64,000 nt of DNA from positions 8,191,155 through 8,255,154 of the forward strand of contig CM026428.1 in assembly GCA_014871385.1 (NCBI GenBank), in the 5' to 3' direction. Below, piece after piece: positions 5,572 to 49,556 of this stretch; the stretch's first letter is position 1, and every line of letters begins with the position of its first letter. The notes under the pieces are model-generated. The model did not search any database and was not told the DNA's origin. It worked only from the letters and a program-made list of their open reading frames with translations. The position numbers and the translations under genes are program-made. The stretch comes from Ceratodon purpureus. Taxonomy: Eukaryota; Streptophyta; Bryopsida; Pseudoditrichales; Ditrichaceae.

Positions 5572-5829
5572 ACCTAAAAACAGAGATTGTATTAAAAGAA
5601 ATGCAAATGGTCTAAATGGAAGCAGGTAATGGGTGGAAGTACACTAGAGGTAGTGCAGTTTTGGCAAAACTCCACTGTACCATTGGGACCTTTTAGTACT
5701 AAAGTGTACAATAAGTACTCTAACGGGCTCAATCTGAGCCGTTGAAATTCCTTGAAAGAAGCGGGGTTAGGCGATTGGAATCAGCCAATCAGGATAGTCT
5801 ATTCTGACAGTAGGGATTTGCTTTGATTT

Positions 5830-7794
5830 AGATCCATATGGGCCAGCACATCTCGACATGACATGTGGCGAAATTCAAACACATGGAGTGGCGGGAGTTG
5901 ATGTCCAGCCTCGGTGGGTGGATCTGCGATTCATTGAGGCACTTAGCATCCTAGCCTTTCCAGACAGGGTTTCCAAGATTGGTGATTTGATTACAATCAT
6001 CCTTCTAATGTGCAATCATCCTGCTCCTGAAAATTGTATATTTGTTAAAGGTCTCAAAGTTATGGACTTGTCTCCACTTTAGGTTTTTTTTAGATGAACT
6101 TGGGATGAAGTCTAGTTCAGTCAAGTGATTGGTTGTTTGAAGCATTCCAAAATATCATGCAAGCTTTTGAAATTAAATTATAGCATGGCCCTAATAAGAT
6201 TTTCTTTTTAATACGTTGTTATAATAAAAATTCCTTAAAGAAAACCATAAATATCGATTATTTATACACTTGTTTTTTTGGAATTGTATATGGTTCCTAA
6301 TTTTGTATCTTGAAAATAAACCTCCGTACTTTGAATTGAGAGTTCTTCCTAGAATTCATCATTTTATAAAAGAAAACATGAGAAGTTGAGCTATTAGCAT
6401 GGTGGAAAAAGGAGAATGCAAGAAAATACTCTATATAGCATGTTTATTTTTTCGTCTTTTATTTTTTTTGGGGTATAGCCTTTTGAAGTTGTTTTAATAT
6501 TAATATAAAAATTAAAATTAAAATATGGACATCATTTCCTCCCCCCCCCCCCCCCTCCTAAAATAACATTTTAAATATTAAGATTAAAGAAGGAAACACT
6601 TAATGGAGAAAAAAAAATAAAAATAAAAATAAAAATAATGAAAGGACAAATAAAATAGAAACAGATTTGAAATACGGTAATAAAAGAAGGAAGAAAAATA
6701 AGTTAAATGAAAAAAAATAGAAGAAAAAAATAACAATAATTATAGAAGGACTAGAAAAAGAGAGTAATATGAAATATGGTGATAAAAGAACAAAGGGGAA
6801 AAAATTAAATAAAATAGAAGGGTGAGAAAAAGGTTGCGAATATGAATACTCTACTATAAGAGGGAATGAAAATAAATAAAAGTGGGACACTGAAAGAGTT
6901 CTACGAAAGAAAGGAATGAAATATTAAAATAAAAGAAGGTGGAAAAAGAAAAAAAAAAAAAAAGAAAAAAAGGAGGACTTATGAAGAAAAAAGGAAAAGA
7001 AAAAAATTAAAGATGGTTAAAAAGAAAGAGAAAAAGAGTTTAATTAAATTACAAAAAATAAAAAAAATAGTTGAAGGATGAAGGAACACTCTAATCAAGT
7101 GTGATGTAATAGAGCGATGAAAGTGAATTCATCAGATTTATGGGTGCTAATGGATTTTTAAGATAGCAATTTGAAAATAGAATATTCTAAAATGTGGTTA
7201 GATTTGTTTATATGTAATTTTTTCTTAAAATAAGGCATGAGACATTAGAAATTAGTATGATGGAAAAAGTATAGCTGCAAAATCAACATATGAGATAGTT
7301 AATATATTCATTTAACATGTACAACTACTTTAAGATATTTTATTGATAGAGAAATAAATTTAAAAAATAAATGAATGAACGTCATTTTGTGCGCCTCTTC
7401 TTAAGAGTTGATATGATATATTAAAAAAGAAGAAAGCAAAGAATAATAGATCAATATTATTAGAAAAAATAATAGATCAAGATTATTTCTTCCCCCCTTT
7501 AAATAAAATACGAAACATTAAAAGCAGGAAGAAGTGGTGAAAGAATTGAGAAGGACACTTTTCCAAAGACGAAAGAACAAGATATTGTAGAGATTGCTTT
7601 ATATATGTTGTTCATTTAAAAAAATAAAAAATAAAAAAAATAAAAAAATAAAAAAACGAGATCTATTTTAAGTTTATTTGATAATAGGAAATTAAAAAAA
7701 AAAACAATAGACAAAAATCGTTGTCTTCCCCACTTTAAATAAAATATAAAGTATAGTACTTATCGTATGTTGGATGAAGACACCAACATATGTG

Positions 7795-7825
<31 letters not shown>

Positions 7826-7965
7826 CTGGAAAAAATTAGAAAACAGAAATCAGAAATTAGGTATAAGGAAAATACAAGCAATTACTTTATACATATATTT
7901 CTTTTTTCTGATTGTTTAATTTTTTAATTTCATATAGGTGTATTTTAAGTGTTTTTCAAGTGTCA
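5830..7965. repeat. AT-rich, low-complexity intergenic DNA
   Basis: About 2.1 kb dominated by A/T runs and A/G-rich (AAAAT, AAGA) low-complexity sequence. It includes a poly-C tract at about 6541-6555 and a long poly-T tract at about 7795-7821. The open frames here are compositional artefacts. No gene or terminal repeat is recognised. Confidence 0.7.
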
Positions 7966-8379
7966 ATTAATGTTGAAGTCGGCTTACACTGAAGGTGACG
8001 GCGGGAAGTAATGCTCAGGGTTTAGTGACCGGTGATCACCAGTTAGGAGTGAGGAGAGTGTGGGCATGACCGGTGACCGCCGGTGACCGCTGTGAAGGAG
8101 TGACGGCGTGACTGGTGGTCGGCGGTGAGCTTCGTCTCGCACCTCTGTCGGGGGTCGAAGGTAGTGAGCTTTGTGTGTAGCCGAAGCTGCGACTGTGAGA
8201 GGAGATGCTGGAGCAATGGTTTTGTAGACTTTGAGTGCGTCTGTTGTGGGTTTAGGGGGGGCGATGGTGAGCTCGGATTGTGGGGTTTAGGGTGTAGAGT
8301 TTTCTTTTGGTTCTTTTGGAGCGGTGAAGGTAGCATTGGTGGCTGTAGTTGGTGTTTCTGTGGAGGGGTGAGGCGCAGC

Positions 8380-11300
8380 ATGGAGCGAAGTACTGGTGCA
8401 CGCTCCGGGGACACATCCAGCGCGAGGAAGGGGAGAGTAGTGGCGGCGCGAGAGAGGAGGAGTCGCGGTGCGGGGAGTGATGAGGAAGACGCTGGGGGGG
8501 AGGGTCCGCGGAAGAAGGCGCGGGCGTCGTCAGGCAAAGGAGGGCGGACTGGTGAAGAGCCAGCGAAGAGGGAATTGCGGACAAAGGAGGCAGCAGGAGG
8601 AACCAGAGGTTGCAGTCGTGGCCGGGACGAGGTGGAGGGAGGAGTTGGTGAAGAGCCAGCGAAGAGGGAATTGCAGACGAAGGCGGCAGCAGGAGGAACC
8701 AGAGGTCGCAGTCGTGGCCGGGACCAGGTGGAGGGAGGAGTTGCAAAGGACGTGCCGAGGAGGACTTCAGGCGCAACGCGAGGAGCAGATACCCCCCAAG
8801 ACGATTTGGAGGAAGAAGCTGCTGCGGGTTCGAAGTCCACAACGAAGAAGAAAGGGAAGGGGACTGTGAGGTCTGAGAAGGCCTTCACTTGTGTAGAAGA
8901 CGTCGACGACGAGATTTCGAGGCTGAAGAAGCCTCCGCGGGAATTGAAGAAGGCGGACTTCCAGGCTGAGTATGGACTCCCCAACGAGGGGGAGAACCCC
9001 CACCACTTCCGAAGAGGCACGGTCTCTTCCGACACTGTGCGCAAGTTGTTTGGTAAGCCCTACGGAGATGGTGGTCGGAGCGGGTTCTACTGGCAGGGTT
9101 GCGAAGTCCAGGATGTTGTGGACAGGGTGAAGTACCTACATCCCATTCTGTATCAACATGGGGAGGAGGAGAATCCAAACCTGATCACCGTGAGGTTCGC
9201 CGAAGGGATAGCATTAGAGTACGAAGAAGGTGGTGGACGAGTGAATTGGTGTGCGTTTGGGGAGGAGACAAACAAGAGACAGAGGAGTCGGTACACCATG
9301 GACAGGGGAAAGCTCGAGGAGCTGAGGAAGTCAATTGCGGAGTCCAAGTGCGTGGAGGGGAAGAGAAAGGTCGACGTCCGGGGTAAGGAGTGGCGTGGCA
9401 TTAAGATAGAACCAGGTTGGGAAGGAAGGGTCGAGCAAGGGGATGCTGTGAGGGTGGGGGGTCGTGGGCCACCGGGAGATTCGAAGGGTGGACTTGAGTC
9501 CGCCATGGCCTCGGGTGTGTGCCTACAAGGGATACGGGTTTGCGAGGACAGAGCAGTGGCAGGTTGGCGAAGGGGGAAGTGGAGGAGCGGCTATGAGACG
9601 TGGAGGGTTTACAGCAAGCTGTCTACTTGGAGCAGAAGCATAAGCGGGAGCTGAAGAAGGAGGCAAGTCAACGGCTTGACGGCGCCATTTGGAAGAGCAA
9701 GCAAAGTGAATGGGGCATGGGCACATTGAGGAAACAAGAGGAGCAGAAGACGGCGCTGATTAGAGGGATGGAAGAGGAAGGGGCCGATGTGTACAAAGAG
9801 AAGATCAAGATGGAGGGAATTCAGGAGCAGTTGGCAGAGGAGGAGGTCAAGGTCGCGGCCGCTAAGAGGGAGCTAGAGAGTGCCGAAGCTGAGATCCATG
9901 CATTGAACCGTGAATTGGAGTCGAGCCAATTGCAACTTGATGCCCTTGCAGCCGAGAAGTTTCAGTTGAAGCAAGGGAGGAGTACTCTGAAATTTACTCC
10001 AAGTCCACTAGTGTATGCGCCTGCGGTGTCAATTCTGTCCGGGTGTGATTTTGAAGATGAGACCGGGTTCATCAGGATTACCCCTTGCTGCTTGTGTTAC
10101 TTCCCATTCCCGCAGAATGACATGGTTGTATCCTCCTCTAGACACTTATATCATCCTTTCTGTGCTTCAGTAGTCTTTGTGCGTAGCTGCAAGTGCGTGG
10201 CAATAGGGTGCGGGGAGATTTGTCACCCGGAATGGTACCGGAGTTTTGGTTGGGTAGAGCCACCTGCGGATTTGGTGGAGACGGCTAGGATGCTTGGAGT
10301 AGCCGAAGAAAGGAAGAGGCTGATGAAGGAAAGGACAGAGCAGGCTATGGCGAATGTGTCATCCGATGGTAAGTTAATTTACATTTAATTTTCAGCATTC
10401 TGGATATGTGGTTTAGAGTGTTGAGTCATTGTTGTGCTCTGTAGGAATTTGAGTGCTTATGTACTTTGGAGTCCTAGAATGTAGTATGCGGTTGTTCCAG
10501 TTTAGGTGAGTTCTAGAAGTTTGTTAAAGGAATAGCTAGTATATTGTTGGATCGTAAGGTTGTACACTATGTCTTTGGTGTGGTTGCTAGCATTGTGATG
10601 ATTGCGATCTTTGTGCCGGATTAGACTTGCACAGTGGATATGAAGTCCAATTTCACTAACAGCATATGTCTGAAGATGTATCTTACTGTCGAAGTCTGAA
10701 ATCAATATGTGTACAAGAAGTCCCGTCATTGAATTCTATACATTATTGTGTATTGCATGGTACTTGGTGATTTTTGTTAGTTGCTGGAGATGTCATATTT
10801 GTATAATAGTGTCAAAGTCTAAATCCAGTACGTGTACAAGTTGTTTGCTTCACTGAGGTCGGTACATTATTGTGTATTGCATGGTACTTGTTGATTTTTG
10901 TTAGTTGCTGGAGATGTCATATTTGTATAGTAGTGTCAAAGTCTAAATCCAGTACGTGTACAAGTTGTTTGCTTCACTGAGGTCGGTACATTATTGTGTA
11001 TTGCATGGTACTTGTTGATTTTTGTTAGTTGCTGGAGATGTCATATTTGTATAGTAGTGTCAAAGTCTAAATCCAGTACGTGTACAAGTTGTTTGCTTTA
11101 CTGAGGTCGGTACATTATTGTGTATTGCATGGTACTTGTTGATTTTTGTTAGGTGCAGGAAATGTCATATTTGTATATTAGGCCTAATCTTCAGGTACAT
11201 GCGGCTACTTAGAGCAAGTATTTTATGTACTCCATGTGACATAGTGCTTCAAATGTACTTACGGTTTAGGGTGCGCAGACAACATTGTACTTGACGGAGC

Positions 11301-13332
11301 TACTACAGGTATTTCTTGTCTTTATTTTATTTGGTACTAGAAGTCCTACATGGTAAACACAAAGTGAGAACAAGTCGTAGAGTACATTTAGGATTGCGAA
11401 CTTCTACAAATGGTCCACCAGTTCAAACAGAATAGGTAGTGATAGTACTGGTTCATTTGTGCTAGTTGATTGCAAGTACATTCGGTACCATGTGTTTAGA
11501 CTCTAACGGGATGTTTGGTGGCAGGTTCTAGCCTGAGGTTTGCATCACCTATGAAGGCCGTCAAGAATGCGGGGCCAACAGTGGAAGGGGAGACAAGCCA
11601 GCCAACATGGTCTCTAGGCGATCCAGAAGATTTAGGTGAAGAGCCGCAAAGGATTGTCAGGGGCGAGAGCATTAAATCTAGATTTCCTCGAATGCTGGAG
11701 AAGCCGGTGGAGAAGGTGGTGATGGACTGTTTCACGGATGGGACTCATGTAAAGGAAGCTGAACCAGAGCTCGATTCACGAGACGATTCTTCTTCTGACG
11801 AAGAGGACGACAACAAGATGGGCCCCTTACCTTCAAGCTCCGGCACTACCGTCTTAGGTGAAACTTCGGAGACCAGTGATGGTGAGTCGAGGGAGGGTCA
11901 AGAAGATGTTGGAGACGGTGACATTTCAATAGAGCCGCTCCCTTCAGATGGACATCTCCTCAGCCCGCCACCGCCAACGCCACCGCCACCGCCAGGAGCC
12001 GGGAGCAATGAAGGAGCGACGGCGGAGGGCCAAGAAGGAGGTAGGGGTGACAAGGCGGGTGGTTTAGGCGTTGTTGGAGGAGGGAGGAGGAGGGATGAAG
12101 GAGCGGGCGTCATTGGGAGTGGAAAGAAAAAGGGCGAGGCAGTTGGGGTTCTTGGGAGCGGGAGGAAGAAGGGCGAGTCAGTGGAGGATCAGCCAGCTGA
12201 GGAAGGGGACGGCGCTGCAAAAATGAAGAAGGGACACCCTGTTGGGAGCGGGAGGAAGGTTCGTGAGGCAGTGGAGGAGGTGAAAGCTAAAGAAGGGGAC
12301 GGCGCAGCAGTGCCGAAGAAGGGTCCAACTGTCGGGAGCGGGAGGAAGATTCGTGAGGCTGTGGAGGTGGGGACAGCTGAGGAGCTACACGGCGCTGCAT
12401 TGCCGAAGAAGGGTGGCGGTCCGACTGTTGGGAGCGGGAGGAAGAAGGGTGAGGCAGTGGAGGAGGGGACAGCTCAGGGGCTACTCGTCGAATTATCGCC
12501 AAAGAAGGGTGGTGGAGTTGGGAGCGCGGGGAAGAAGGATGAGGCAGTGGCGGAAGGGGATGGTGCTATAGAGAAGGAGAAGGGACCGCTGACACCGAAG
12601 GAGAACGAGAAGGAGGATGAGCCCTGGTCGGCGAGGAAGGAGACACCCAAGCCAGGGTCGCAATGCTTGCCGGGACGCAAGGCCAAGTTGCTCTGGGGAG
12701 AGTATGGTAAGGATGGAGGAGCCACGGCCTCAGGTTTTGTAGATACATTGGTGCAGGTGGAGGCTGCAGCCAAGTTCATGGCGGTTTCAAGACGGAAGGC
12801 GGAGGGGGGAATAAATGAGAGCATGGCTGCGGCAAAGGAGAAGGGCTCCATGGAAGCAGAGGAGGATATGGAGGATACAGAGGTCGTTATGGAGGATACT
12901 AGAGCCGAGTTTGAAGTCCCTCGCGTGACGGATGATGAGCCTGCGGAAGGAGAGGCAGAAGAACAGTTGAAGGGTCATATTACGCCCCGGTCACCATTCA
13001 AGTTGAGATCAAGGAGACAAAAGGGTCCAACTATAGAAGAGGACTCAGGGCCGAGACTTGAGGGGGCGATAGAGAATGTTTATTCCGCAGACAAGACCAC
13101 ATACAAGGAGCTGGCCGAGATTGTTGGGGGGAGTGGGAGTCCCGTTGCTGTCCCTGAAGCCAATGTGCGGACCAGAGCACGCACCGCTAAGGAGGCCGAG
13201 CAAGCGGCGGAGGAATCCCCGGCACCGACCAGGGCTAAGGGTCGTAAGAGTGAGGGCAGAAAGAATGAGAAGGGAAAGGGTGACAAGGTAGGTGGCGGAA
13301 TCTCACAGAAACGGCGGAGAGGCGCCACTTAG
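8380..13332 (+). CDS. Mosaic protein: transposon module, coiled coil, zinc-finger-like segment, acidic/Lys-rich tail
   Basis: Proposed as one gene of three exons: 8380-9382, 9598-10368 and 11525-13332. The last junction is well supported (donor GATG|GTAAGT, acceptor GGCAG|GT, phase preserved). The first keeps frame but has a poor acceptor. The start ATG at 8380 opens a basic region with two copies of a roughly 32-residue repeat beginning GEEPAKREL. Then comes the plant-transposon module (EYEEGGGRVNWCAFGEE). Exon 2 gives a long coiled coil (Glu/Lys-rich, about 100 residues) and a compact Cys/His segment, from ITPCCLCYFPF through YHPFCA to CGEICHPEW, that looks like a PHD/RING-type zinc finger. 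Exon 3 is low complexity with repeated GSGRKKGEAVEE-type units. It sits upstream of, and co-directional with, the SET gene. A chromatin-linked role is inference. Confidence 0.55.
10688..11175. repeat. 124-bp tandem repeat inside the second intron
   Basis: The motif CATTATTGTGTATTGCATGG recurs at 10741, 10865, 10989 and 11113, an exact spacing of 124 bases. The last three units are almost identical and the first is more diverged. Each unit carries several GTAC tetranucleotides (for example CCAGTACGTGTACAAG). The array lies entirely within the intron between 10369 and 11524. Confidence 0.9.
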
Positions 13333-13613
13333 AATGAGGGCTTGAGCAATCTGTAGATTGCTTTTAGTACTTTATTTTTTTGGGTTTTTGATCTATTGAG
13401 CTGCGGTAGAATGCTTGTATAGAACAGATTTGCAGGTATATTAATGTATCTTCCCTCATCACTGAGGTCTTCCTAATAGGGAAGGGTTACGGCTTGTGTA
13501 CTTTATTTTCCATGCTGATGTGTTATTTGCGATCCATTGTGATTTCTTTGCATTTGTACTTATGTTAGTCTTCCCCAGCAGCCTTGGAACTTTGCATTTC
13601 TATTTTTAAGAGT

Positions 13614-14720
13614 ATGACGAGGGGAAGGTGGTCTGTTGGGATGGTATTCTACCAGGCCGAAGCTTGGTATGATGCAGCAGATTTGTCTAAGGGACTCGAG
13701 AGGATCCCTGTCCTTGTTGGTCAGTCTGATATTGCTATGACTTATTTTCAGTATATTAATTCTAGCTTGGTCTATGACCAAGCACACGTGCCTACCACCC
13801 TTCAGAGCCTTCGACCCGGGGACTACTGTCTTTGTTCCCCGGAATGCTTGGGCGGGAATGGTACGTGTGCGTGCCAAGCCGATTCAGTGGGAGGAGTTGC
13901 ATACACCGAAGGAGGCATTGTGGAGGACGCGTATCTCTACAATCACAACGAAGAAGATGCACATTACTGTAAGAAGGGTAGACGGTGTTTTAATGGCGAA
14001 TCAGTGTGCCGAGGTCATGTTCCTCGTCTTTTCCTTAAGGAGTGCAATGTCAAGTGTAGGTGTCATAGTGATTGTGGCAATCGTGTTGTCCAGCAGGGGA
14101 TGAAGTTTCAAGTAGAGGTTTTTCCTACAGCCCTTACGGGGTGGGGGATTCGGACGACTGAGCTAATACCTAGAGGTGCGTTCGTTTTTGAGTTGGCGGG
14201 AGAGATTTTAACAAATGCTGAGCAAATGGTTAGGAACGTGGGGGTAGTTGGGGGTCAGTCCTATAGCTTGCAACTTGATGCTGACTGGGCCACTGAGCGG
14301 AAACTGGACGACCACAATGCATTGTGCTTGGATTCTACTCGATTTGGAAATGTGGCCAGGTTTTTGAACCACAGGTTAGAACTTGCGACCATATTCTACA
14401 TACTTTGCGGTCTTTCTTCTTACATTCTACGATATGGCCTGACTGTGGGCCTCTGTCATTACAGGTGTGAAGATTCTAACCTAGTGGACATACCTGTTTC
14501 GATAGAGAGTGTGGATCGCCGCTTCTATCATGTAGCATTTTTTGCAAGTCGTATCATACGTCCTGGAGAGGAACTAACCTGGGACTATGGCACTAATTTT
14601 AACAATGATGATCCGGACCTACCTCGGTTTACTTGTAAGTGTATGAGTAAAATGTGTAGAGACAATGCCTTACCACTTGCCATCCGAAGGTCAGCCAGTA
14701 AACCACCTAGGAGAAGATGA
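13614..14720 (+). CDS. SUVR4-like SET-domain histone methyltransferase
   Basis: Two exons, 13614-14374 and 14465-14720, separated by a 90-base intron. The start is the ATG of MTRGRWSVGM. The protein (338 residues) has the whole catalytic unit of the plant SUVR4/SUVR1/SUVR2 class: a cysteine-rich pre-SET region (CSPECLGGNGTCACQ, then YCKKGRRCF, then CKCRCHSDCGNRVVQ-like cysteines), SET motifs GWGIRTTELIPRGAF and LDADWATE, the cofactor/catalytic motif NHRCEDSN created by splicing, ELTWDYG, and a post-SET CKCMSKMC. Family members methylate histone H3 lysine 9 and help silence transposons. It lacks the N-terminal WIYLD region of SUVR proteins, so it is a stripped catalytic core. It lies between a transposon-module gene and a convergent transposase gene, which suggests capture by a mobile element (inference). 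All key motifs look intact. Confidence 0.85.
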   Translation: MTRGRWSVGMVFYQAEAWYDAADLSKGLERIPVLVGQSDIAMTYFQYINSSLVYDQAHVPTTLQSLRPGDYCLCSPECLGGNGTCACQADSVGGVAYTEGGIVEDAYLYNHNEEDAHYCKKGRRCFNGESVCRGHVPRLFLKECNVKCRCHSDCGNRVVQQGMKFQVEVFPTALTGWGIRTTELIPRGAFVFELAGEILTNAEQMVRNVGVVGGQSYSLQLDADWATERKLDDHNALCLDSTRFGNVARFLNHRLELATIFYILCGLSSYILRYGLTVGLCHYRCEDSNLVDIPVSIESVDRRFYHVAFFASRIIRPGEELTWDYGTNFNNDDPDLPRFTCKCMSKMCRDNALPLAIRRSASKPPRRR

Positions 14721-15744
14721 CTCCACATATGTGTTGTGATATCCTTCTGTAAAGCACAACCACACTCATACATTCTTCTAGACTTTCAAGAGCAAGCCTT
14801 TTGTTTATGCATAAAAGGGGTTAATCCTGAACAATATTTCTGCCGATATACTGTTTGTACTAGCGAAGATGTATTCAGAACATACTCTTTGTACATTTTA
14901 TATACTACACGTACATATCCAAAATATACTCTTTGTATATTTTTACATACTACACCTGCATATCCAGAATATACTCTTTGTACATTTTTTGATGCACTAC
15001 ATGTACAAGTAAACCAAATGCAAGGATTTTTGGGACTCTTGGAACTTCATCTATTCTGAAGCAAACATAGAACAACTCGGATAAATAGACAACCATTCAA
15101 ACTCTAGAGCTCGAAGCCTGAACTTGAGTTTATAAACTCACTTGTAAATTATTAGAATCAATGTTTCAATGGTACTGTTTGAGTAGTGTTAGGACTTGCC
15201 TAAACACCAACCAGTACTTCTAAAACCAACGTCGAATGAGAAACAAACCTCTCACCCTAAACCGGTAGCTCCCAATTCCAACATTCTACGATATCACTGC
15301 TATCCTCAGATATGAGCTCTTGAGGTACCGCTATCCAGTGCTCCCTGTAAAAGGCCCAAAACAAAAAGGAAAAAACAACAGTACCTAATATCCAGCAAAG
15401 TGTAGAACTATGATCGTCCAGCCTGACTCAAAATAAAAAAAGAAATACAGAATGGGTGATACTACATAATGGGTGTGGGTAGCATGAAAAGAAGATTATA
15501 AAGAATAAAAGAAAGTAAGGGATTGCAGGTTCTCTTAATCACAGACTACTATGCCAGACAATAGATGACTGAAGCAAAAAAAAGGGGGAGCACTTGGATA
15601 GCGGGATATCTCAGGAGCTCACTTTCAGTCAAACAAATACCCAAGCATTTGTTTGACTTATATCATCACGGGACCAGTACTTTTAAAACCACCGTCAAGT
15701 GAGAAACAATCCTGAAATCAGTGTACATAGCTTGCAACTTGAAC
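14721..15744. other. Intergenic region between convergent genes
   Basis: About 1 kb separating the 3' ends of the SET gene and the transposase gene. No coding frame is supported. It contains a short degenerate repeat around 14830-15010 in which 'atactctttgtac' recurs three times at roughly 60-base spacing, and several further GTAC tetranucleotides. It presumably carries the polyadenylation signals of both genes. Confidence 0.5.
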
Positions 15745-18700
15745 TTAATCTTCGTTGAACGCCCACCACTCTCGCAGGGCATCTTCGCATATCTGAAGCG
15801 TTTCACTTGACATCTTGTATACAGGAGTACCTTTAACCCTGTGTTGAGCTAGAACCATAGGGAATTTACAAGCTCTAACCAGATGGGCATCAACGTGTGC
15901 ATCAACTGCTTTGTCGCAGAGTACATACGTCTTCTCACCACGTCCATACTTCTTGTAATACTTTGCTCTGATCACAACATCTTCGGCCCTAAATACCCCC
16001 CCCCAAGGGCAAGTCTTGGGCTCTGCTAACACAAACTTCTTCGCTTGACACTGGAGAATGTAGAATCCCACCCCGTCTTCATTCTCCTCTTCTGCTGGAA
16101 TCATGAAATTGTCGCCGATGTCCACCAAGTCACCGACCTCCTCTGAAATGCCGTCATACACCCAGTTAGCCTCGTCGTCAATTTCTTCAATTTGCTGTGC
16201 TACACCTCCTGCACTCATCGGGCACAGCCTCTGAACAGCCCACTCCTGCACATGCGTCAAATTCTCACACTCGGTCCAATCACCATCAATGCATGGGACG
16301 CAGAAGCATGACAACTCTCGAGTCCTAAGCGTAGTCGGATCAGCCATAGAGAAGCCCATAATAGAGTAGAGACTCTTTGAGCCGGGCAAAGTGTTACACT
16401 TGATACTCTTATCATTATGATCCACCTCTGTATTTCCTATCAACCAAAACACACGTGAAAGAGGGGAAGTTTTAGCATGAGCATATGAGCTGGCAACACG
16501 CTCTGTGTATTTCTCCTCCAGGAACTCCACAACTTGAGCGGCATTCTGTAAGGGCCTCAATGGATTTTGGATCTGCTCAGCAGCAAGCGCCCTCTTCACC
16601 ACAGCACCAGCCCCATCCCATTCTCCTTTTCCATGAGCCGACTCAAAGTAGTTCCACCGCATCTTGCAACCCCCGGTGAGCGCCGAGTAGCGTGCAACAA
16701 AGTACATCGCTGTCGCGCACTTAAACTGGGAACTACACCCGTCACTGTAGACCCAATGTTCCTCCGGTGTCAACCCTGAATCACCCAGCCAATCCCAATG
16801 CAACGTCAGACAATGTTGAACAAAAGCTGAATCGTGAGCCTTATCATCAGATATGTAGAAGTGAGTCTGCTTCATGGTCTGCTCTCCTTCTTTCCACATC
16901 GTAATGTGCACCAGGATGGTCACACTAGTACTGAAGTAGTACAAGCTCTGGACCTCATTTTGGATGGCAAAAGTGTAGTTCTCTGCATAGTCGATATGTG
17001 ACACAACCACTCCCTCCGGAACGTTCTTCATCATCAATTGACATTGCTCATCTTGCCATCGTGCCTTGAAGTTGTGTGTGATAAAGGTGGTCACTGTTTT
17101 CTCCATATAAGATAGGAATTCGTGAACAGCTGTCTCTCTGAAAGCTTCCCGAAGACGTTTCTTCACTTTTCCAGACTGAGCATCCACTCCCACCTGGTAG
17201 TACTCGAAACACTTCCATCTAACAAGAAAGGTGTTAGAACCAGACAACTCATGCGGGCAAATAGGAAAGAGTTGGAAACCACAGCTAGAACAATCGCCCA
17301 TGAGACATTCAAGCCTATGCCACATATCAAATTCTCCTTTTGGACAAACACATGATTCCCACATCAGAGTTATTCGTTTGAAAGTATTCTCATGTGCACA
17401 ACAAGTCCCTTCCTTACTGCCCGTGCACACTGTACACGCACAATCACACGTGGTATGCACATGGAGCCCCCTGACTTTGTCCCTGAGGTTGCTCAATCCA
17501 ACCTTCATCATGTCCATCTCCACATGGTATATGCAACAGCAGGTATTCCTCTCCTTGAGTTTTCGCACCCACCATGGCTTCAACCTCTCAAAAGCCCTCT
17601 GCCGCACACTACATTCTGGGTGGACCTCTTCGAAGCGCAAGTAGAATGAGGTCTGCCAATCACGCACAAGTGTACATCAGGTACGATAGAGGACCTTCAT
17701 TCAGAACCTAATACAAAACATGCAACGAAATGTACTAATTGTACAAAACTGAGACCATTATTCTACAAAAAGTCATAGATAAGAACAGTCGGTACCCCTC
17801 AGTACTCTGAACAATGCCGCAAGTATAAAAGGTACATGAAGACCATACAATACAACGCAACGCAACGTATGTACATGACTCCAAGTACTAATTTGTACTC
17901 TAAGTTATTGCTGAGTGTTCAAAAGTAGCAGTCTTAGTCAATTACTAAACACTGTATTACAGAAAAACTCTAACCTAGTACAATAAGTACAGTGAGGAAC
18001 CATCATATGGACATTTAGACCCCTACATCGCAACTAGGGGAAGTCCAAAGTCAAAAAGTACATTACGGCGCACGTCCAGTACTTACTATGACCGTAAAGT
18101 ACTCACGGTACTTCTTCTCCAATTTTAATCTAAAGTCCGCAAAAGCACTAAATCATCTATTGACTCCAAATTGCACAACCAGTACAAATTATACTTCGCC
18201 CTAACAGGACCTTGCTAGAAGTTTACATTACAAAGAGTACACACCCGAAGAAGACTATGTATAGTACCTTTTCTTGAAATTGTTTGATCCAAACTATGTA
18301 TCATAGAATGCAGCCTAGGCAAAATACGCTACACAACAACTACAAAGTAACTAATGATGACTTCTCTACAACCTTCAGATATCCATATTGTCCTATGAGG
18401 TACTGAAAGTATGTAAACTAAGCAATCGGACTCATCATATTATACAAACAAGAAATCAATAAGTTACAACTCACCTGAGGCTCGCACAAGTAATGTGTTG
18501 GATGAGGTTCGGCCCAGTCTTTTCGACCTACTCTATGCTTGACGATGTCCTTCTTATTCGGTGATACTTTTGTTTGACCATTCCACCATGCATGAATGCA
18601 TTCTTTGACGTACTCAGATAGCCCTGGTCTCTTCTTTCGATGCAATCGAAGACTGCAAACCGTGTCTGGAGTATTGGGGGCGTAAACCCTTCTGTTTAAC

Positions 18701-19272
18701 GCAATATTGATGCTCTTCTGTGTCGTAACCAAAACACGTGACAACGGCCTCACTCCCTCGATCCCCTGGCTAACTGCGGCATCTAACAAAGCACTCTTCC
18801 TTGCCAACAGCTCGTTAGAGTTAGCCTGCTTCACTAACTGTAACTCGTTCTTGAAGTTCTCAATGAAAGAATGAATAACCTTTGCTTCGTGTGGCCGAGC
18901 ATAGTAAACAGGTAGCAAAGGCGAAATAGTGTTATGACGCATGACCTTCTCCATAACATCTCTCCTACTAGATGGACCGGGACAACTTCTCAACTCTTCG
19001 ACTATGTACTGTGCTATGCGAAGGAAGATCCGGTTCAACTCCCGCACAGTGAGAGCATCATCAACTTCATGATCCGGCGGCACAGAAGCTAAAACCAATG
19101 CCTCCTCGTGTCTTTGTCTATCTCGTGCTCTCTGAAGGGCCTTCCTTTCTCTTGCCCTCTCTGTAGCTACGGCCCTAAGCTCCTCCTGCAAGCGAGCTTC
19201 AGCAAGCCTAGCTGCTGGACCTGGGCGGCTGATACCCTGTCGCAAGCGTTGCCTCTTAGCGGTGTTTCCCAT
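15745..19272 (-). CDS. DDE transposase-like protein (family shared by plants and animals)
   Basis: Two firm exons: 19272-18475 (ending CCTCAG|GTGAGT) and 17652-15745 (acceptor TTGGCAG), joined in phase 0 to give 901 residues. The first exon starts with a basic coiled region. The second has FERLKPWWVRKLKERNTCCC, then a cysteine cluster, then an RNase-H-like core with DYAEN (about residue 486), YSDGCSSQFK (about 569) and AHGKGEWDGAGAVVK (about 610). These three blocks give a plausible D-D-E/D triad. Similar proteins with the same blocks occur in cnidarians, fish and non-seed plants. I recognise the pattern but cannot name the superfamily. The frame is intact. An upstream exon is likely (see 19453-19800). 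The 822-base intron is very rich in GTAC. Confidence 0.75.
17653..18474 (-). repeat. GTAC-dense intron of the transposase-like gene
   Basis: From 17641 to 18420 I count 20 occurrences of the palindrome GTAC in 780 bases, against about 3 expected by chance. They are embedded in varied flanks (TGTACA, AGTACT, GGTACC), so this is not a simple tandem repeat. Similar density occurs at 20281-20680 (10 in 400 bases) and in the intron 10369-11524 (about 24). Confidence 0.8.
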
Positions 19273-19452
19273 CGCTGGAAACCTAAGAGAAAAACAGACG
19301 TAGAAAACAATAGACCCGCATCAGTTTTCTGAAATTGAATAATCGGAGATCATGGTCGCGGAGTTCAGTCCGTGAAGGGTTTACAGATGAAAAACGCAAA
19401 ATAACTCTTTCATGAGACTGCAACGGGAACTCACCGTCGAATATTAATCTCG

Positions 19453-19800
19453 TCACTTCCTGAACGCAACAGATTCGCAAGAAGCAGTAGGAGACCCTAC
19501 TGAACGCCTTCCCTCCGAAACAGAAGGTGTGTTCTCAAAGCTACTTGCAGAATAACATATCGAAACTGGACTCATGAATAAGGACCGCCTAGGGGACTCA
19601 TCTACGTTGTTGCATCTGCCTAGATAGAAATCACGATTCCCTTGTTTTGACACTGGGGTTTCTTCAACATAACCCGAATCAGAAACCTCACAGAATGAAT
19701 GGCAGCAAGAAGAACCGAACTCAGTGATCGGAGCTGCAGTAAAGTATGATGTTATCAGTCTCTGCACACGGACAACCTGCCGCTGCGTGGACTTTGACAT
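19453..19800 (-). CDS. Probable 5' exon of the transposase-like gene, with a PIP-box-like motif
   Basis: An ATG at 19800 opens a 115-codon frame beginning MSKSTQRQVVRVQRLITSYF. Residues 14-21 (QRLITSYF) match the PCNA-interacting peptide consensus Q-x-x-[ILM]-x-x-[FY]-[FY]. The rest is Ser-rich and disordered. It lies 181 bases upstream of the firm first exon. A donor (GACG|GTGAGT at about 19434) and an acceptor (TTTCCAG at about 19274) lie between them. Linking the frames needs one more short splice or a frameshift that I could not resolve, so its inclusion in the same protein is tentative. Confidence 0.45.
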   Translation of the reverse strand: MSKSTQRQVVRVQRLITSYFTAAPITEFGSSCCHSFCEVSDSGYVEETPVSKQGNRDFYLGRCNNVDESPRRSLFMSPVSICYSASSFENTPSVSEGRRSVGSPTASCESVAFRK

Positions 19801-20280
19801 TCTTCACTGAGGAAGAACAACCGCCCTTAAACTCATGAACAAGAGTTATCGCACAGCATGCAAGCTAAACTACAGCACGAAGCAAAACCCTCAACACATT
19901 GTAAACCTCAACGCAACCAACAACATGCTACAGCAAACACGCAACAGTGTGCTGCATGGCCGATCAGAGGACATCAGTGAGAGAGACGATGACGTGGACA
20001 AATCAAGAGGTGGCGGCGCCTTCATGGCATGGCGGCCCGGGAAAACGGGATCTGTTGAAAAGAACGAGGCAGTAGTTATGACAGATTCCATGTACATCAT
20101 ATACTCATGCGTACATTTTGTACAAGTAGAACACAGGAAGACGTCGAGGATCAAGTAACGGAAAAATGACCATTTTCATTATTTGACAGAAGGCCATTGT
20201 AGAAATGCGTGCCGCCGTCGAGTCTAATGCCTCCGATTACGAAAAATCTTAATTTTCCACTTTGTATTCCGTTGCAACTG

Positions 20281-20680
20281 AAACCAGCACTTACTTCCAT
20301 GTACAGACCAAATTAACTATGTACTTGTAAAATCAGGGATAGATTCCAATAGGCTATTCCTTCTTATCTCCTTTGCAAAAAACGAAAACAGAATTAGAGC
20401 CTTTGATGTAAAAGAATTGTGTACTTTTCTCATATACAAGTACTATGTGACCTTTTTGTACTAGTGCACAATAGTACAAATTGAACACACTTAACTACAT
20501 TTTCTAACTGATTCAATAATGCATAGGAAGTCCCTACATATGTAGTATTTGGAAAAACAAAACAAAACCCGAAGAAAAAGCTTCTAAGTACAGGTAATTA
20601 AAAGTACAAATTCATGCCATCAATGTATAATGTACTGTGACTCAAAAAGTACATTGGTCTAGCATACTTCCACCCTAATA
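20281..20680. repeat. GTAC-dense non-coding segment upstream of the transposase-like gene
   Basis: Ten GTAC tetranucleotides in 400 bases, several as TGTAC or AGTAC next to A/T-rich flanks. There is no supported coding content. Together with the introns at 10.4-11.5 and 17.7-18.5 kb it gives the locus a distinctive signature. Confidence 0.7.
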
Positions 20681-20718
20681 AGCGCGGAGTCGACGAAAAG
20701 AAGAGATGAAACTCTTAC

Positions 20719-22051: not shown

Positions 22052-22708
22052 TGTTACGCTGGATTCTAGACATGGAGAGTGTGAACAGGGGAGAGCATAG
22101 AGGAGACGTCTCGGTAGGGGTTAATACCCGGTACCCGGATGATACCCGGATCGGGGGCAGCAGTTTGGTCGTCCAAGGGTCGGGTGTCACTGGACAAGGA
22201 CACGGCGTTAGGGTTAGCCCCGGACGACTGAGAGCGTATCCAGTCAAGGGAAGAAGGCGGAAGTGTTTTAGGAGGTAGTCGTCTTAGACTGCGAGGGAGA
22301 ATTCGGGGAATACATGGCCACGGTGTCCGAGTTAGAATAGAGAAGGCTGTAAGGGAAAGCAATTCAAAGAGCAGGGAGTAGGAGACAGAGCACTCATGAG
22401 ATAACCAGTGTGAGAGGAATAATCATACAAGAAAGACAGGCAGCAAGGGTTTGGGGGCAGAATAGGTGTCTCATTATCAAAACATCGGAGCATCAGAGTT
22501 GTCACAAAGTGGGCGTCCAAGTCTTAGCGAGGGCGTGCTACTGTTCTAAGCCTAAGCTCTTCACCAAAATCCGAGAGAGGGTCCTAGTCTGGTCCTATGC
22601 CCCTTTTATACTATACTGCCTATCTTGGAAGTCGCAGCTAACTCCCAGTGATGCCGCTGCTGCCGTCCCTGACTGTAGTCCTTGCGGTGCGGATGTTGCG
22701 GGGTAACA
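22052..22708 (-). repeat. 3' LTR (left)
   Basis: 657 bases, TGTTACGCTGG...GGGGTAACA, bounded by the terminal inverted hexamers TGTTAC/GTAACA. It matches the right LTR base for base as far as I can compare. The plus-strand open frames inside both LTRs are incidental. Confidence 0.95.
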
Positions 22709-22724
22709 TTTTACCCTCCCTTGT
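22709..22724 (-). promoter_or_regulatory. Polypurine tract of the gypsy element
   Basis: Immediately upstream of the 3' LTR on the coding strand lies a purine-rich run reading CAAGGGAGGGTAAAA. This is the expected position and composition of the second-strand primer. Confidence 0.8.
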
Positions 22725-22758
22725 AGCTCGCAATCCGTCCGCGGATTGTCGGGGTTTG

Positions 22759-25700
22759 CTAATTCTTGGTCCGTCGGTGTGCAGGTCGCCTGTCGGGACG
22801 AGTGGCTTCGCGAGGAAGCTGCATCTGACGCCGTGGAGGTGCTTGGTCGCCATAGAGAGTTTCGATTGCTGCTGCTACGCCACGATGGATCAAGTTGTGT
22901 TTGGATCGGGACGTAGCCGCATGCTGATAGATGTCATAAACTGTTTTCCCTAGGAGTTTGTTGCAGACGGGGCACTGGATATTATCTGCTTCAGGGTCAG
23001 CGTATCGTGAGGCCAAGTCAGGATAGGTCCTGAAATAGTTTCTCACTTGAGTAATCGCAGTTTCTCTCTCGTCCTCTGCCTCACTGTCGTCACTGGCTTC
23101 TAATTCCAAGTTGAATTCTTCTTCTAGCTTTTTTAGGTTATCCTTATGAAATTTCAGAGTATGAGGGCGGGGATTTACCATGGGGATTGGCTGACTTGGT
23201 TCCGTGGGCTGCACAGTAAGATGGGGCGAGGGCTGCGGTGTGTCTTCGATGTCCGTCAGCTGATCGGGGATGTCCACATGCTCTGCCGGGTCAGGTGAGC
23301 CAGGGGGAAGTGCTGTCGATGATGAAGCCCCAGGATGCAGAATGATCATCAATGGTGCGTCGGTACCCGGTCGCTGAGGTGAATGGTAAACTTCTTTGCC
23401 CTTTGCAGCTTCCTCGCCGTCTAGGAGATCCTGGTCCATGGCTTCCCAGTCTGGCTCTGATTGTTCCAGCTCCAGGGTAGCCATGGCCTCCTCGATGCAT
23501 TGGTCTATCAGGCCTGGCAGCATGTCCTCGGTGGTTGGGGGCTGCAGGCGAAGCATTCGAAACATGTTGGTGGCTATGGCCTGAGTAGCTGTGTGTACCC
23601 AACCTATTTTGTTTGCTTCGAATGTTGCCTTCATCTGCTCGAGGGTCTCCTGCTCCTGATGTGATTGGCCTTGCTCCCCCTGTGCTGGCTGGTTGACCTT
23701 GGCAGCGTGATCGACAGACAGCTGCTTATACCTAGCTAGGTAGTCGGCATTGAGCTGTTCAAGCTTCTGAATCTTCTCTTGCATCCAGAGTTTCTCCTTG
23801 GCGATCAGATCCACTTGTTCGTGAGCATGGGTGAGTTCTAATTCGAGGCTCGTGATCTGGTTGCGGAGATTGGCCAGCGTAGTCTGTGCTTCCTCCAACT
23901 GTTGCCGAAACTCCAAGCGTGTGGCCTCCAAGGTTTGATTTGCCTGTGCTTGTGCTGCCTGGAGAGCTTGCATCGCTTTGCGCTTTCCGCGCTCCTCTTG
24001 TTCTTGAAATCGTTTCTTCTCCTGCTCCGTTGCATGTGCGACTTGTAGGAAAGCTGTCAATGTGGCTGTGATGGTCGAGGCCTGATTATAAAGCTCTGTT
24101 GTTCGCGGTCCCCATGCTGGATCTTTGGCGATGGGCTCCCCGGTGGACAGCTCCAACACCCGTTGGCGCTTGCTGCTTGGACCTGTCGCGGGTACTTCTG
24201 CTGGCGCAGTCGTGGCGAGCTCCCGCCGAATATCGAGGAACGATCCCATGGCAGGTGGGCGACCATGGCGTCCATGATAAGCGAGGAAATGGTGAATGTA
24301 AGCTGTGAGGAAGGGTCCAATTGGACTGGAATACTCCGGTCGGCGGCGGTGTCCTCGCAGCTGCACGCGAAAGTTTTCATCCACAAGAAAACCCCAATTG
24401 ATCGCCTCCCCCTGGTCGGCCATGAACAAAAGCAGGAGTTGGTCAGGAGTGATACCGTTACAGTCGTTTTTGAAGAAGACTTGGCTGAGAATACCACGCA
24501 TTCGAGAGAACCAGGGCTCCACCAAGATCTTCCCCAATGCGAAAACATCGTAACGGCCATCAGCTCGCAGAGGTAGATGCTGAACCAAGGCTTCCACGTC
24601 TGGCCGAGGGTGGACGCAGGTGGGGCTCCACTCCGTAGCTCCGGTGCCGTCCCATCCGAAGAAGGCATGGAGGTATCGGCTCGAATATTGTACCAAGATG
24701 TTGCCGACCATGCCTGCTGGAAACGCCTCGTCTTCACTACGCTGCCTCATGGACTGTATGAACTCGTTGCATAGCGCCAGGTCTGTCTTCCCTTCCATGA
24801 GCGTCCAATACTTCACAAGCCCTGTCTTTGTTGTCCAAATCTCGTCCGCCCTCCTCTTCCATTCGTGTATCATGCGTGGTACATAAAACGGTGGCACATG
24901 TTTCCTAGGTGGCGCGGCGGCCATGGTGATGAGAGGCGAAATGGAGGAAGAGAAGAGAAGTGTGGGCGTGAGGTACTGGCGGAGTGCAGAGAGGGAGAGG
25001 CGCGTGTGAGTCGGGTCCCAGTGCTGGAGCAGACTTGGTGGTATGGAGGGCCTGGGCTGAGGAGAAGGGGAGGACCTTGGGGAACAACATGGGGCGCAAT
25101 GAGAAGAAAGGCGGGTGCATGGCGGCTTTGAGATGACCTGGGGAGTCTCCTGATGGGCTGTCCAGGGAACTGGTGGCGGCCCTGAGGAGGTATCATGAGA
25201 CTCTGATGGCCGCGATGATAGTGGCGGCGCTGCCCGGCTGGGGCGGCGGTGATGCGGATGGCATGCTGTCTTGTCCATCTGATGTCCATGATGGCCCCTG
25301 TTGTCTATGGGAATTTGGACAGCATGGATAAGGTGAATCGTCACTTCAGGTAAGAAAGACTGCGGCTGATGATTGATGTGGTCGTCTGTGATGGGATGTG
25401 TGCTGAGACCATTATCAGAATTCTGCTCTTGACCGGCTTCTGTTTCCAGGCGTTTATTAATTTCTCCTAGATTCAGTGTTGGTGATAGGAGTGGTGTTGC
25501 AGTATGATAATGTTTGAGCTTTGCTGCATTGACCATAGTTGCATGGTCGTCATAGTTGTCATTGTTGATTAAGAGTACCGTATTATTAGGTAGGACTAAT
25601 TGGACCCGATACGGGCCATGCCAAATGGATTCAAATTTGGCCCTCTTGATTTTGGGATCCCTGGGGCACCATAGTACCAGGTCGCCTTTTTGGAAAATGC

Positions 25701-28700
25701 GAGGTGGCTGTGATGCTTGGAATGACTTGGCGCTCAAACGTTGCTTGTGTACAATGTTGTGTAGAGCGGATTCCCTAAGTTCCTCTAAGTGATGTATGTC
25801 CTGTAATCTGGCAGCCAGAACCCGATGGGGTGTGTAATCCCTAGGTTGAAGGCTACGGAAGGTGGGGGCAATATACTCCGTTGGCAGCAATGGTTGTGTG
25901 CCGTAAACCAATTCGAAGGGGCTGGCCTGGGTAGCGGTTTTAGTGGCTACCCTGTAGGCCCATAGAGCTGCAGGCAGACAGTCGTCCCAGTCGACCTTGT
26001 TAGCGTGGATGAATCGTTTTAGCATATTGAGTAGTGTTTTGTTGGTGGATTCAGCTTGTCCATTACCTTGGGGGTAATAAACAGTACTCGTTCTGTGCTT
26101 GATAATATGATTCTCCATGAGCTCGTCGATGACAGCGTTGACAAAATGTGACCCTTGATCTGATAGGATTTCCAAGGGACAACCGAACCGAGTAATAATC
26201 TGTTCGTAGATAAATGCAGCGGTGACCAAGGCTGTATTAGTGCGGAGTGGTTTGGCTTCGACCCACTTGGTGGTGTAATCAGTAGCTACTAAGATATATT
26301 TGAACCCACGTTTAGTGATTGGTCGAATGGGACCAATGAAGTCTAAGCCCCATCTAAGGAAAGGTCCTAACGGTGGTATAGAGCGTAAGGGGACTTTGCC
26401 TTGATGTTGGAAGTTTGTTGTGGCTACCTGGCAGGCGTGGCATTTTTTAACATAGTCATGGACGTCTTTGTGTAACGTCGGCCACCAATACTTGGCGGTT
26501 AGGATCTTTTTAATAGTAGTATCTGGACCCTGGTGTCCACCGGCAGGACCGTCATGGAGGTGCGATATAATGTCCTGTTGTTGCTCCTTGGCGACACAGA
26601 TTCTAGTTTCTCCGTCAGGTCCCCGGCGATACAGTTGGCCCTGGATGACCGTATAAGGAAGGGTGCTGCGAATGAAGCTGATTTTTCTGGTCCCTGTGAA
26701 GTCTGCTGGGGCCTCCCCCTTGGTTAAGTATTGTACATATGGATGTTGCCAATCAAGGACTGCCTCGGGGGTGACCGTTGCTGCTTGGATATATGAGTCG
26801 TTAAATGAGTCATCAATGCCGTCCTCGGTAGTCGTGGTGTCCCTGGATAGATAATCGGCAACTATATGGCGTTTGCCGGGTACATAGACGACTTCGAAGT
26901 CATATTCTAATAGAATCATGATCCAACGGGCAACGCGCCCACTGACTAGCGGCTGATTTACTAGGTAAGATAAACTGTGATGGTCGACTATAAACCTGAA
27001 CTTATTTCCTAGTAAATAATGTCGAAATTTCTTGACGGCATAGATCATGGCTAGAGCTTCTCTCTCGGTCGTGGAATAATTCCTTTCTGCTGTGTTAAGT
27101 AGACGGCTTGCATAGGCGACCGGTTGATCGTGTTTTCCTGTGATGTTTTGTGCTAGCATGACGCCTACGGCCAGATTTGAGGCGTCCGTGTGAACATGAA
27201 AAGGCTTGGTCCAATCTGGAGCAATGAGGATGGGTGCGTTGGAGTAAGCAATCTTGATTTTTTCCAATGCTTCTTGGGCGGCAGGGGACCAATCTCGTGG
27301 ATAACTGTAGCCCACACGATTTAATGCTGTGATGGGAGCTGTGATATGTGCCAACTTTTCGATGTAGATGCGATTGAACTGGGCCAAACCAAGGAGCCGT
27401 TGGACACCCTTTTGGTTAACAGGAGGCACCATGTTAACAATGTCTTGGATCTTCTCAGGGTCAGGTAATTTTCCATGCTTGCACACAATATATCCCAGGA
27501 TGATTCCTGCAAAGAAGAGGAACATGCATTTGTCGGCATTGAGGCTGACCCCGTTGGCTCTGCAGGCATCGAAAATCTGTCGCAGATGATGGATATGGTC
27601 TTTCATGGACCCATAGACCGTACCATCGTCTAAATATATGCGAAAGAATCTTTTTAAAAAAGGTCTAAAAATTAGTTCCATAACCCTCTGGAATGTCATG
27701 GGGGCATTTTTGGCTCCGAAAGGCATTCTCTCGAATTGGTAGGGGCCCCATTCAGTAGAAAAAGCCGTCTTGTTTTTGTCTTGGTCGGCCATGGCAACTT
27801 GGTAGTATCCAGAGAAGCAATCCAAGAATGAGTACATCTCATGGCCGGCAACTTCATCGATGATCTCTTCCATGTAGGGCAGTGGGTAATGGTCCTTTTT
27901 TGTGGCGGCATTGAGTTTGCGAAAGTCGACACAAATGCGAAGTGTTCCATTTTTTTTTGGAATGATGACCATGGGTGATAACCAAGGTGCAGAGTCTACA
28001 GGTGAGATAAATTTGGCTTCTAATAACTTATCCAGTTCGGTTTTGACCCGTGTAGCGTAATTTGGGTTCATACGATATCGTCGTTGTTGTACGGGGTGAG
28101 CATTTGGAATTAGATCTATAGTATGCTCTGCTAGTCTGCTTGGTATGCCTTTGAGGTCCTCATGACTCCAAGCAAAGATGTCGTGATATTCGTGGAAGAG
28201 TTCGATGGCTGCTCGTTTCAACTCTTCGGGGGCCTCAGCATTGATTTTGACAAACTTTGGTTTGTCCGTGGTGCCCAAGTTAATGAGCTCCACTTTATCT
28301 TTAGCACCATGGGACCATCCGTTGATGGTATGATTTTTCAAGGCTTGGGAAGCTGGAGGGGCGTCTACTTTAACTGTTTCTTGGACTTCCTTGGTGAAAT
28401 GTGCAGGGATGTCGAACTTTTCTTGTTCTGGTACTAAACTTGCTAAATGTATTTCTGCCAAGGGTACCAGGTTAGGGTCGGCTTGTAATACCAACGCCTC
28501 TTGTTCCGGAGAGAGTCCTTTCAACCAATTTGTACCTGCATGGTGTCGGATTTGGTCGGCTTTAGCTCTAGTCACACAACTATCTACAGGAATGGTTATG
28601 GTTTTTCCTTGTCTATGAATCCTGATCTGGTTTCTGGCCCAGTCATGGACGGCGTTCATGTCTCGTAGCCATGGTCGTCCCAGGATGATGGGAAAATTAC

Positions 28701-30519: not shown

Positions 30520-30562
30520 GGTGATTGAATTTTCTCCGGTTTCCCCCTTATTCACAATTCCA

Positions 30563-30583
30563 TCCCCAGCATGGTCGCCAAAA
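30563..30583 (-). promoter_or_regulatory. Primer-binding site of the gypsy element
   Basis: Directly downstream of the 5' LTR the coding strand reads TTTTGGCGACCATGCTGGGG. The TGGCGACC... start, complementary to a tRNA 3'-CCA end, is where minus-strand priming is expected. The tRNA species was not identified. Confidence 0.7.
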
Positions 30584-49424: not shown

Positions 49425-49556
49425 ATACGATCTTCCAACAACGTACCTCACTCGAACCTCAGAACACCCTGCAACCAAGACTCAAATGCAATACGATCTT
49501 CCAACAACGTACCTCACTCAAACCTCAGAACACCCCGCAAACAAGAGATCCACAAA
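49425..49556. repeat. 66-bp tandem duplication
   Basis: The sequence 'atacgatcttccaacaacg' at 49425 is repeated at 49491, and the following bases (tacctcactcgaacctcagaacaccc) also repeat with few changes. Confidence 0.85.

Follow-up and report, generated by a model that had tools for sequence, protein, structure and literature searches.

Gene content and limits of the element

The window, a stretch of 64,000 nucleotides from the moss Ceratodon purpureus (C8:8191155-8255154 of a 362 Mb assembly), contained open frames on the forward strand (8380-9654, 9717-10388, 11551-13332 and 13614-14720) and on the reverse strand (15745-17517 and 18418-19272). A Pfam scan detected a SET domain (PF00856, E 7.6e-17) in frame 13614-14720 and nothing convincing in six other frames of the window. 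The features of the locus are listed in Table 1. An earlier note on this DNA had placed a SET gene, a gene with a transposon-type module and a DDE transposase-like gene in one element, and this was borne out by common ends, 4-bp target duplications and recurring neighbours. The element was wider than the stretch first described (8380-19800). Its ends, set by comparison with other copies, delimit 15,045 bp.

Table 1. Features of the transposon and its insertion site, in window positions
Feature	Position	Strand	Remark
Target duplication TAAT, left copy, 4 bp	5627-5630		
Whole transposon	5631-20675		Block recurs with common ends at six other genomic sites
Left terminal inverted repeat, 18 bp	5631-5648	+	GGGTGGAAGTACACTAGA
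AT-rich, purine-biased 5′ region	5649-8379		No listed long frame
Exon 1 of the proposed module-SET gene	8380-10368	+	Encodes basic N-terminus, conserved module, coiled coil and RING-like zinc region; disrupted in the window copy
Intron 1	10369-11524	+	GTAC-rich; GTAAGT donor and CAG acceptor in matching phase
Exon 2	11525-13287	+	Low-complexity; four tandem 90-96-nt repeats (12142-12513)
Proposed intron 2	13288-13655	+	CAG acceptor, phase 0
Exon 3	13656-14374	+	Pre-SET and beginning of SET
Intron inside the SET domain, 90 nt	14375-14464	+	GT-AG, no in-frame stop; removal restores NHRCEDSNL
Exon 4	14465-14720	+	Remaining SET, post-SET, stop
DNA between the convergent genes	14721-15744		GTAC-rich; 11 GTAC against 3.3 expected
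Transposase exon 2	15745-17650	-	Catalytic D229, D312, D354 (numbering of the 643-residue frame); 5′ edge approximate
Transposase intron	17651-18474	-	GTAC-rich; edges approximate
Transposase exon 1 (N-terminus)	18475-19272	-	3′ edge approximate; by-eye match to liverwort protein P0151
Region upstream of the transposase	19273-20657		GTAC-rich; 13 GTAC in 19273-20700 against 4.1 expected
Right terminal inverted repeat, 18 bp	20658-20675	-	GGGTGGAAGTATGCTAGA, reading inward
Target duplication TAAT, right copy, 4 bp	20676-20679		

Ten SET copies, from a first SET search of the assembly in which 150 of 699 candidates were scored, were compared with the window over 20 kb each. Six aligned with the entire element (5631-20675) or almost all of it, and a seventh over 5631-15487 alone. 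Another was a diverged relative (71-84% identity in blocks), and the remaining two, labelled family C, were far more distant. Most aligned blocks of the near copies were 97-99% identical, with part of the 5′ region at about 90% in two copies. Copies of 98-99% identity left in the genome point to recent mobility. Full-length copies, with both ends present, measured 13.8-15.2 kb in family A, to which the window element belongs, and 10.7-10.8 kb in family C.

The copies ended sharply in the 18-bp inverted repeats, which start GGGTGGAAG. Perfect 4-bp target duplications flanked eight of the nine insertions checked, their sequence varying from site to site, and three of the four bases agreed in the ninth. 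Near C6:109 Mb, a related repeat that lacks the element aligned colinearly with both flanks of the window insertion (two flank blocks, 81-83% identity); the junction itself aligned poorly in this comparison. Inverted repeats with duplications of fixed size, a DDE/D transposase with a predicted RNase H fold and dispersed near-identical copies are the hallmarks of TIR-type cut-and-paste elements. The locus holds a complete DNA transposon of the cut-and-paste kind, with a DDD transposase.

Linkage of the SET and transposase genes in the genome

Searches of the genome returned 69 transposase matches (69 of 1616 candidates scored) and 113 SET rows (111 of 1081 candidates scored), so that these copy numbers are lower bounds. 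A convergent SET lay within 6 kb of 54 of the 69 scored transposase matches, or of 56 when nine rows from the first SET search were added. The gaps ranged from 48 to 2940 bases, all pairs thus being closer than 3 kb, and the chance expectation was about 0.06. Seen from the other side, 54 of the 113 SET rows were paired with one of the 69 transposase matches, and the others may pair with unscored ones. Four of the 13 unpaired transposases were inspected over 1.8 kb alongside. Three of them had SET sequence (one near-complete exon, one disrupted, one C-terminal part only), and the fourth had the module exon and no SET. Eleven of the 113 SET rows covered residues 1-367 or 1-368 without an internal stop.

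Twenty more SET loci, 2 kb each, were chosen for diversity. Nineteen resembled the element SET, and one (L048) had the look of a different type of host gene. Relative to the window SET, identity fell from 99% (spliced) to about 36-50%. A convergent transposase was recovered below SET in families D (86% identity in the main blocks) and E (71%). In families F and G it was not found in the 2.5 kb examined, even with 33 transposase homologues as queries. The two family C copies (C6:44.8 Mb and C10:1.9 Mb) had no nucleotide match of 150 nt or more to the element, except for one transposase piece of 65% identity in one copy. The copy at 44.8 Mb nevertheless presented a module frame, a zinc-region frame, a low-complexity frame, SET and convergent transposase pieces in the order of the window.

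Other SET copies with the same neighbours, common termini and target duplications, which the earlier note had proposed to look for, are thus present in the source genome, and a single-copy SET gene without the flanking genes, which it had set against the idea of an element, is excluded. SET is almost certainly a regular cargo of the element.

The SET rows were unevenly distributed, 82 of 113 lying on a 110.5-Mb contig against 30% expected, with the reservation that the rows are not independent. The U and V chromosomes of C. purpureus are each described as larger than 100 Mb, about 30% of 360 Mb, in the part of the source used here (PMC8000587). By its size the 110.5-Mb contig would agree with a V chromosome.

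The SET gene

The SET frame matched solved histone methyltransferases, with EHMT2 (9.3e-31) the best among 60 listed of 73 distinct sequences found at E 0.001 or better; the H3K9 methyltransferases among them included EHMT2 itself, SETMAR (2.6e-26) and SUV39H2 (4e-22). The frame was found to contain a 90-nt intron, at whose site the relatives P0003 and P0005 have an in-frame insert and many relatives from other data sets stop or diverge. Once it is removed, the pre-SET, SET and post-SET motifs are intact. Of the compact, intact SET gene at 13614-14720 described earlier, the full set of motifs therefore stands; the single compact frame does not, because of this intron, and translation probably does not begin at the ATG at 13614 (see below).

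By its motifs and its place in the tree, SET is predicted to be a histone lysine methyltransferase of the plant SUVR4 type, as the earlier note had proposed. A protein search gave 297 relatives, the seven closest among the 120 listed being 57-92% identical. The named relatives among the matches listed were plant proteins, many of them called SUVR4, at about 38-45% identity. A WIYLD domain (PF10440), which many plant relatives carry, was absent from seven window frames at E up to 1.

The SET tree comprised 32 rows: 17 element and environmental SETs, 12 plant SUVR4 proteins and three other SET proteins of the same genome, the host SUVR4 gene not being among them. The 17 formed one group (93/88) beside plant SUVR4 (94/94), and the two together (98/96) stood apart from the three other SET proteins of the genome. 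The separation of element copies from other genomic SET genes, for which a tree had been suggested, was thus recovered for these three. The environmental proteins nested within families D and E, and the long branches of families C, F and G were uncertain. Equal contig sizes suggest that SET P0022 and transposase P0123 (5267) lie on the same contig, and likewise SET P0003 and module protein P0156 (8592). Viral contigs searched for SET and DDE relatives gave 12 and 600 pattern-matching stretches respectively, none of them confirmed.

Nei-Gojobori dN/dS was computed on the spliced SET for 13 pairs, with 95% bootstrap intervals. In ten pairs it was 0.16-0.46 with intervals below 1, two very recent pairs (0.61 and 0.38) had intervals reaching above 1, and in one pair dS was saturated; some other dS values were high and rough, and stop codons in some copies were dropped. 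Values between families were well below 1 in this check, another that the earlier note had proposed, and SET is under purifying selection between families.

The module gene and its junction with SET

The frames assigned earlier to a module gene at 8380-13332 are present and recur beside SET; exon 1, by contrast, is broken in the window copy. The homologue P0154 spans frames 8380-9654 and 9717-10388 as a single exon, and the window exon is one base shorter than in six siblings; the frame of its second half is also interrupted by a stop. Window exons 2-4 are open. Intron 1 holds three 124-nt tandem repeats (10726-11181) with several GTAC apiece. The RING-like label of the zinc region rests on weak Pfam matches. 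A search with the module protein found 13 relatives, and its profile reached a best E of 0.13 against solved structures. In the low-confidence predicted fold (pLDDT 45.8) only the long helices were well predicted.

SET probably forms the C-terminus of a single long gene, whose predicted product would run from the module through a coiled coil, a RING-like zinc finger and repeats to the SUVR4 SET. A phase-0 donor for intron 2 lies near the end of the upstream frame, reading AAG/GTAGGT in families A, B and D; that of family C (GCG/GTGGGT) is one chosen among candidates. In families A-D the SET exon starts after CAG in phase 0. In family B and at locus L038 a stop lies just before this CAG, in the frame of SET. 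Given this stop before the acceptor and the in-phase fit of the upstream exons, translation is unlikely to begin at the ATG at 13614.

The four-exon model was applied to eight copies, five of which had all the marks. In one of these five the joined frame ran uninterrupted through 1,545 codons, from the module through SET; in the other four, the window copy among them, it contained stops or frameshifts. A fused module-SET protein of about 1,545 residues appears likely from these splice marks and frames. If intron 2 is retained, the frame stops at 13330-13332 after a short basic tail. The stop and the basic tail after the donor are conserved in families A and B, so that a module-only product would also be encoded and SET may often stay unjoined.

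The transposase

The convergent DDE transposase-like gene of the earlier description was confirmed and proved to have two exons, by comparison with P0151 (junction approximate). A protein search found 33 relatives, one of them from the liverwort Calypogeia fissa. The residues D229, D312 and D354 of frame 15745-17676 were kept in 97-100% of covering rows, and an RNase H-type integrase/transposase core was predicted for this frame. Foldseek returned nothing at E 0.001 or better with the transposase model, whose likeness to integrases rests on a realignment. Between D312 and D354 there were no conserved pairs of C or H and only a single H348.

The GTAC motif

The tetranucleotide GTAC was four to seven times as frequent in the non-coding DNA of families A-C as in their surroundings. 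In family A it occurred 15.1 times per kb in the window element; outside it the figure was 2.6, and in the flanks of six other copies 3.0. The values were 15.9 against 2.3 for family B and 11.9 against 2.7 for family C. The excess over dinucleotide expectation was 3.6-fold, 3.3-fold and 2.6-fold, respectively. Stretches of families D and E had 12.8 and 17.6 per kb and the whole F stretch 9.5, and the G stretch, at 3.5, was not enriched. Density was low in the coding parts (2.4 per kb in family A, 4.1 in C). Non-coding DNA of families A and C gave no nucleotide alignment, and GTAC thus seems to have persisted longer than the DNA in which it lies.

In the window element most GTAC occurrences were intronic or intergenic and remote from the termini; the transposase intron (17677-18474) alone held 19 against 5.2 expected. 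There were also clusters at both termini (5639-5715 and 20588-20649), with five GTAC in the first 90 bases. The AT-rich 5′ region of family A was GTAC-poor overall (2.9 per kb), its sites clustering at the terminus. The terminal clusters indicate that the transposase may be the reader of GTAC.

Possible function of the element-borne methyltransferase

Hosts use H3K9 methylation to silence transposons. Purifying selection on SET, retained in families that have diverged from one another, suggests a benefit of the enzyme to the element. The best explanation, in which we place moderate confidence, is an element with a SET cargo whose fused protein would be a self-targeting chromatin regulator acting through GTAC. 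The SET exons would be spliced to the upstream module exons to give one protein, and a module-only protein would result where intron 2 is kept. The module part may bind the GTAC motifs scattered in the element's non-coding DNA, and SET would then write H3K9 methylation at GTAC-bearing DNA, in trans, on many copies. In this way the element could govern how it is expressed, how many copies it has or where it integrates. Self-targeted H3K9 methylation, taken by itself, is a more doubtful proposition. More tentative still, and somewhat unlikely in its entirety, is the picture of an old and still mobile group of land-plant transposons that has piled up on the probable male sex chromosome of the moss and encodes a GTAC-directed H3K9 methyltransferase, in which the module and the zinc region are joined to a SUVR4 SET.

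Other readings assign the same features differently. The SUVR4-like protein might instead disturb host silencing, by competing for substrate or partners or by displacing host writers at its own GTAC sites; it would then act much as VANC does for Arabidopsis VANDAL transposons. The window element shares the VANC-type layout of a non-coding motif, tandem repeats at the motif and protein repeats, but SET keeps its catalytic motifs and is under purifying selection, which a mere decoy would not need, and we regard anti-silencing as unlikely. A division of labour, in which GTAC sites bind the transposase and SET acts elsewhere (on a non-histone substrate such as the transposase, or by marking target chromatin for integration), we likewise hold to be improbable. 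The clusters at both ends speak for binding by the transposase and the position of most sites far from the ends against it; the excess on the 110.5-Mb contig could reflect targeting, but it may reflect slow loss on a non-recombining chromosome.

Two simpler possibilities carry much less weight. Plant transposons often carry captured genes that serve no purpose, and a host SUVR4 gene could have been picked up by chance as a passenger of no use to the element; the same gene order in diverged families and the purifying selection on SET make this very improbable, the dN/dS values largely refuting it. A host SUVR gene that merely lies beside unrelated transposon genes would agree with the plant SUVR4-class sequence, but is refuted by the multicopy state, the common ends, the target duplications and the fixed neighbours, and its probability is practically negligible.

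Should the favoured account of a self-targeting methyltransferase be true, transposons would write their own chromatin state. With so many near-identical copies, it can be tested whether a silencing mark of host type serves transposons to regulate or conceal themselves. The conserved GTAC suggests a way for one protein to recognise a long element, a question that VANC also raises, and the Ceratodon host brings sex-chromosome biology within reach.

Relation to known systems

SETMAR is a primate gene that joins SET to a mariner transposase, one domesticated host fusion. It resembles the window element in combining an H3K9-type SET with a DNA transposon, but the window SET travels on a multicopy mobile element, as a gene separate from the transposase. 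The element SET shares pre-SET, SET and post-SET with its sister group in the tree, plant SUVR4, and differs in the WIYLD domain, not found in the window frames scanned, in its N-terminus and in being transposon-borne.

SETMAR had been taken for the only well-known association of SET with a transposase, a view that is not supported: SET genes are reported from HarbingerS and MuDR elements, DNA transposons of Phytophthora (Kojima and Jurka 2014, cited in PMC12730594). A SET-bearing transposon as such is therefore already known from the account given there. Compared by that description only, these elements also have a SET histone methyltransferase as cargo of a DNA transposon; they belong to oomycete hosts and, by name, to other superfamilies, whereas the window element has a land-plant host, a SUVR4-type SET, a probable module fusion and the GTAC motif. 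No SET-bearing plant transposon was described in the titles and abstract openings of the literature searched, and an earlier Repbase deposit is possible. As far as these searches show, what is new here is the plant host, the SUVR4-type SET, the likely fusion and GTAC as the motif.

The layout of the motif resembles that of Arabidopsis VANDAL21. According to the portions of PMC5735166 used here, VANC acts on motifs in the non-coding DNA of its own family, the motifs have spread as tandem repeats, the variable regions of VANC proteins contain peptides repeated in tandem, and VANC reportedly brings about a loss of DNA methylation. A short motif enriched in non-coding DNA is likewise present here as GTAC, except in family G. 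The likeness is one of layout only and extends to an element-encoded protein besides the transposase, a short motif in non-coding DNA (introns included), tandem repeats in the motif regions and repeats in the protein; the motif and the superfamily are different, and a SET domain is unmentioned for VANC in those portions.

For Lanisha, PMC12730594 cites Maumus, McDaniel and Carey. In the portion of that source used here, the Lanisha/EnSpm group (CMCT) has C(2)C and H(3-4)H motifs between the second D and the last catalytic residue (PMC12730594). By this description only, and provided that D354 is the third catalytic residue, the window transposase differs, C2C/H3-4H not being seen between D312 and D354. 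The three authors reportedly also worked on the Ceratodon genome. Target duplications of 4 bp, as found here, are described for Sola2 in the excerpt available (PMC3627910), a likeness by description only.

Distribution and families of SET genes

The 110.5-Mb contig C6 of the source genome assembly represents 30% of the assembly and carried 82 of the 113 matches of the SET frame. Such matches have accumulated on this contig, which is a probable sex chromosome. Five SET hits of equal score were found on five other contigs (C13:10342, C18:7611, C73:32228, C108:14060 and C119:20437), and are possibly a duplicated or contig-end repeat.

Two diverged families, F (loci L053-L045-L054) and G (L055-L046-L056), consisted of SUVR4-type SET genes, each preceded by a low-complexity frame. 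No transposase was found in the 2.5 kb downstream of SET in either family. The tetramer GTAC, which is enriched in the non-coding DNA of element families A-C, was abundant in family F and not in family G. The SET genes of F and G may be part of other elements, or they may be host or domesticated genes.

Repeats and other frames in the window

The AT-rich 5′ part of the element (see table) contained abundant AAAATAAAAGAAGG-like repeats and was also found in six further element copies. Beside the element, the retrotransposon was bounded by 300-nt direct repeats (LTRs starting at 22052 and 30584) that were 100% identical. Its 2608-aa frame (22759-30585, minus strand) had gag, protease, RT, RNase H and integrase family matches and a long C-terminal extension. 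The 1509-codon frame had no match in Pfam, and is perhaps another transposon protein.

Features of the window
Feature	Position	Remarks
AT-rich, purine-biased stretch	5631-8379	G+C as low as 25%
Ty3-type LTR retrotransposon	22052-30883	minus-strand frame; direct repeats and protein family matches
66-nt tandem repeats	49407-49538	
14-nt tandem repeats	49693-49886	unit CGAATCATCACACT
1509-codon open frame	50905-55434	

By eye, the minus-strand frames 1396-2844 and 46839-47468 resembled the module, the conserved transposon-type part of the element's exon 1 (around 8860-9400), as if it were common to several transposon types.
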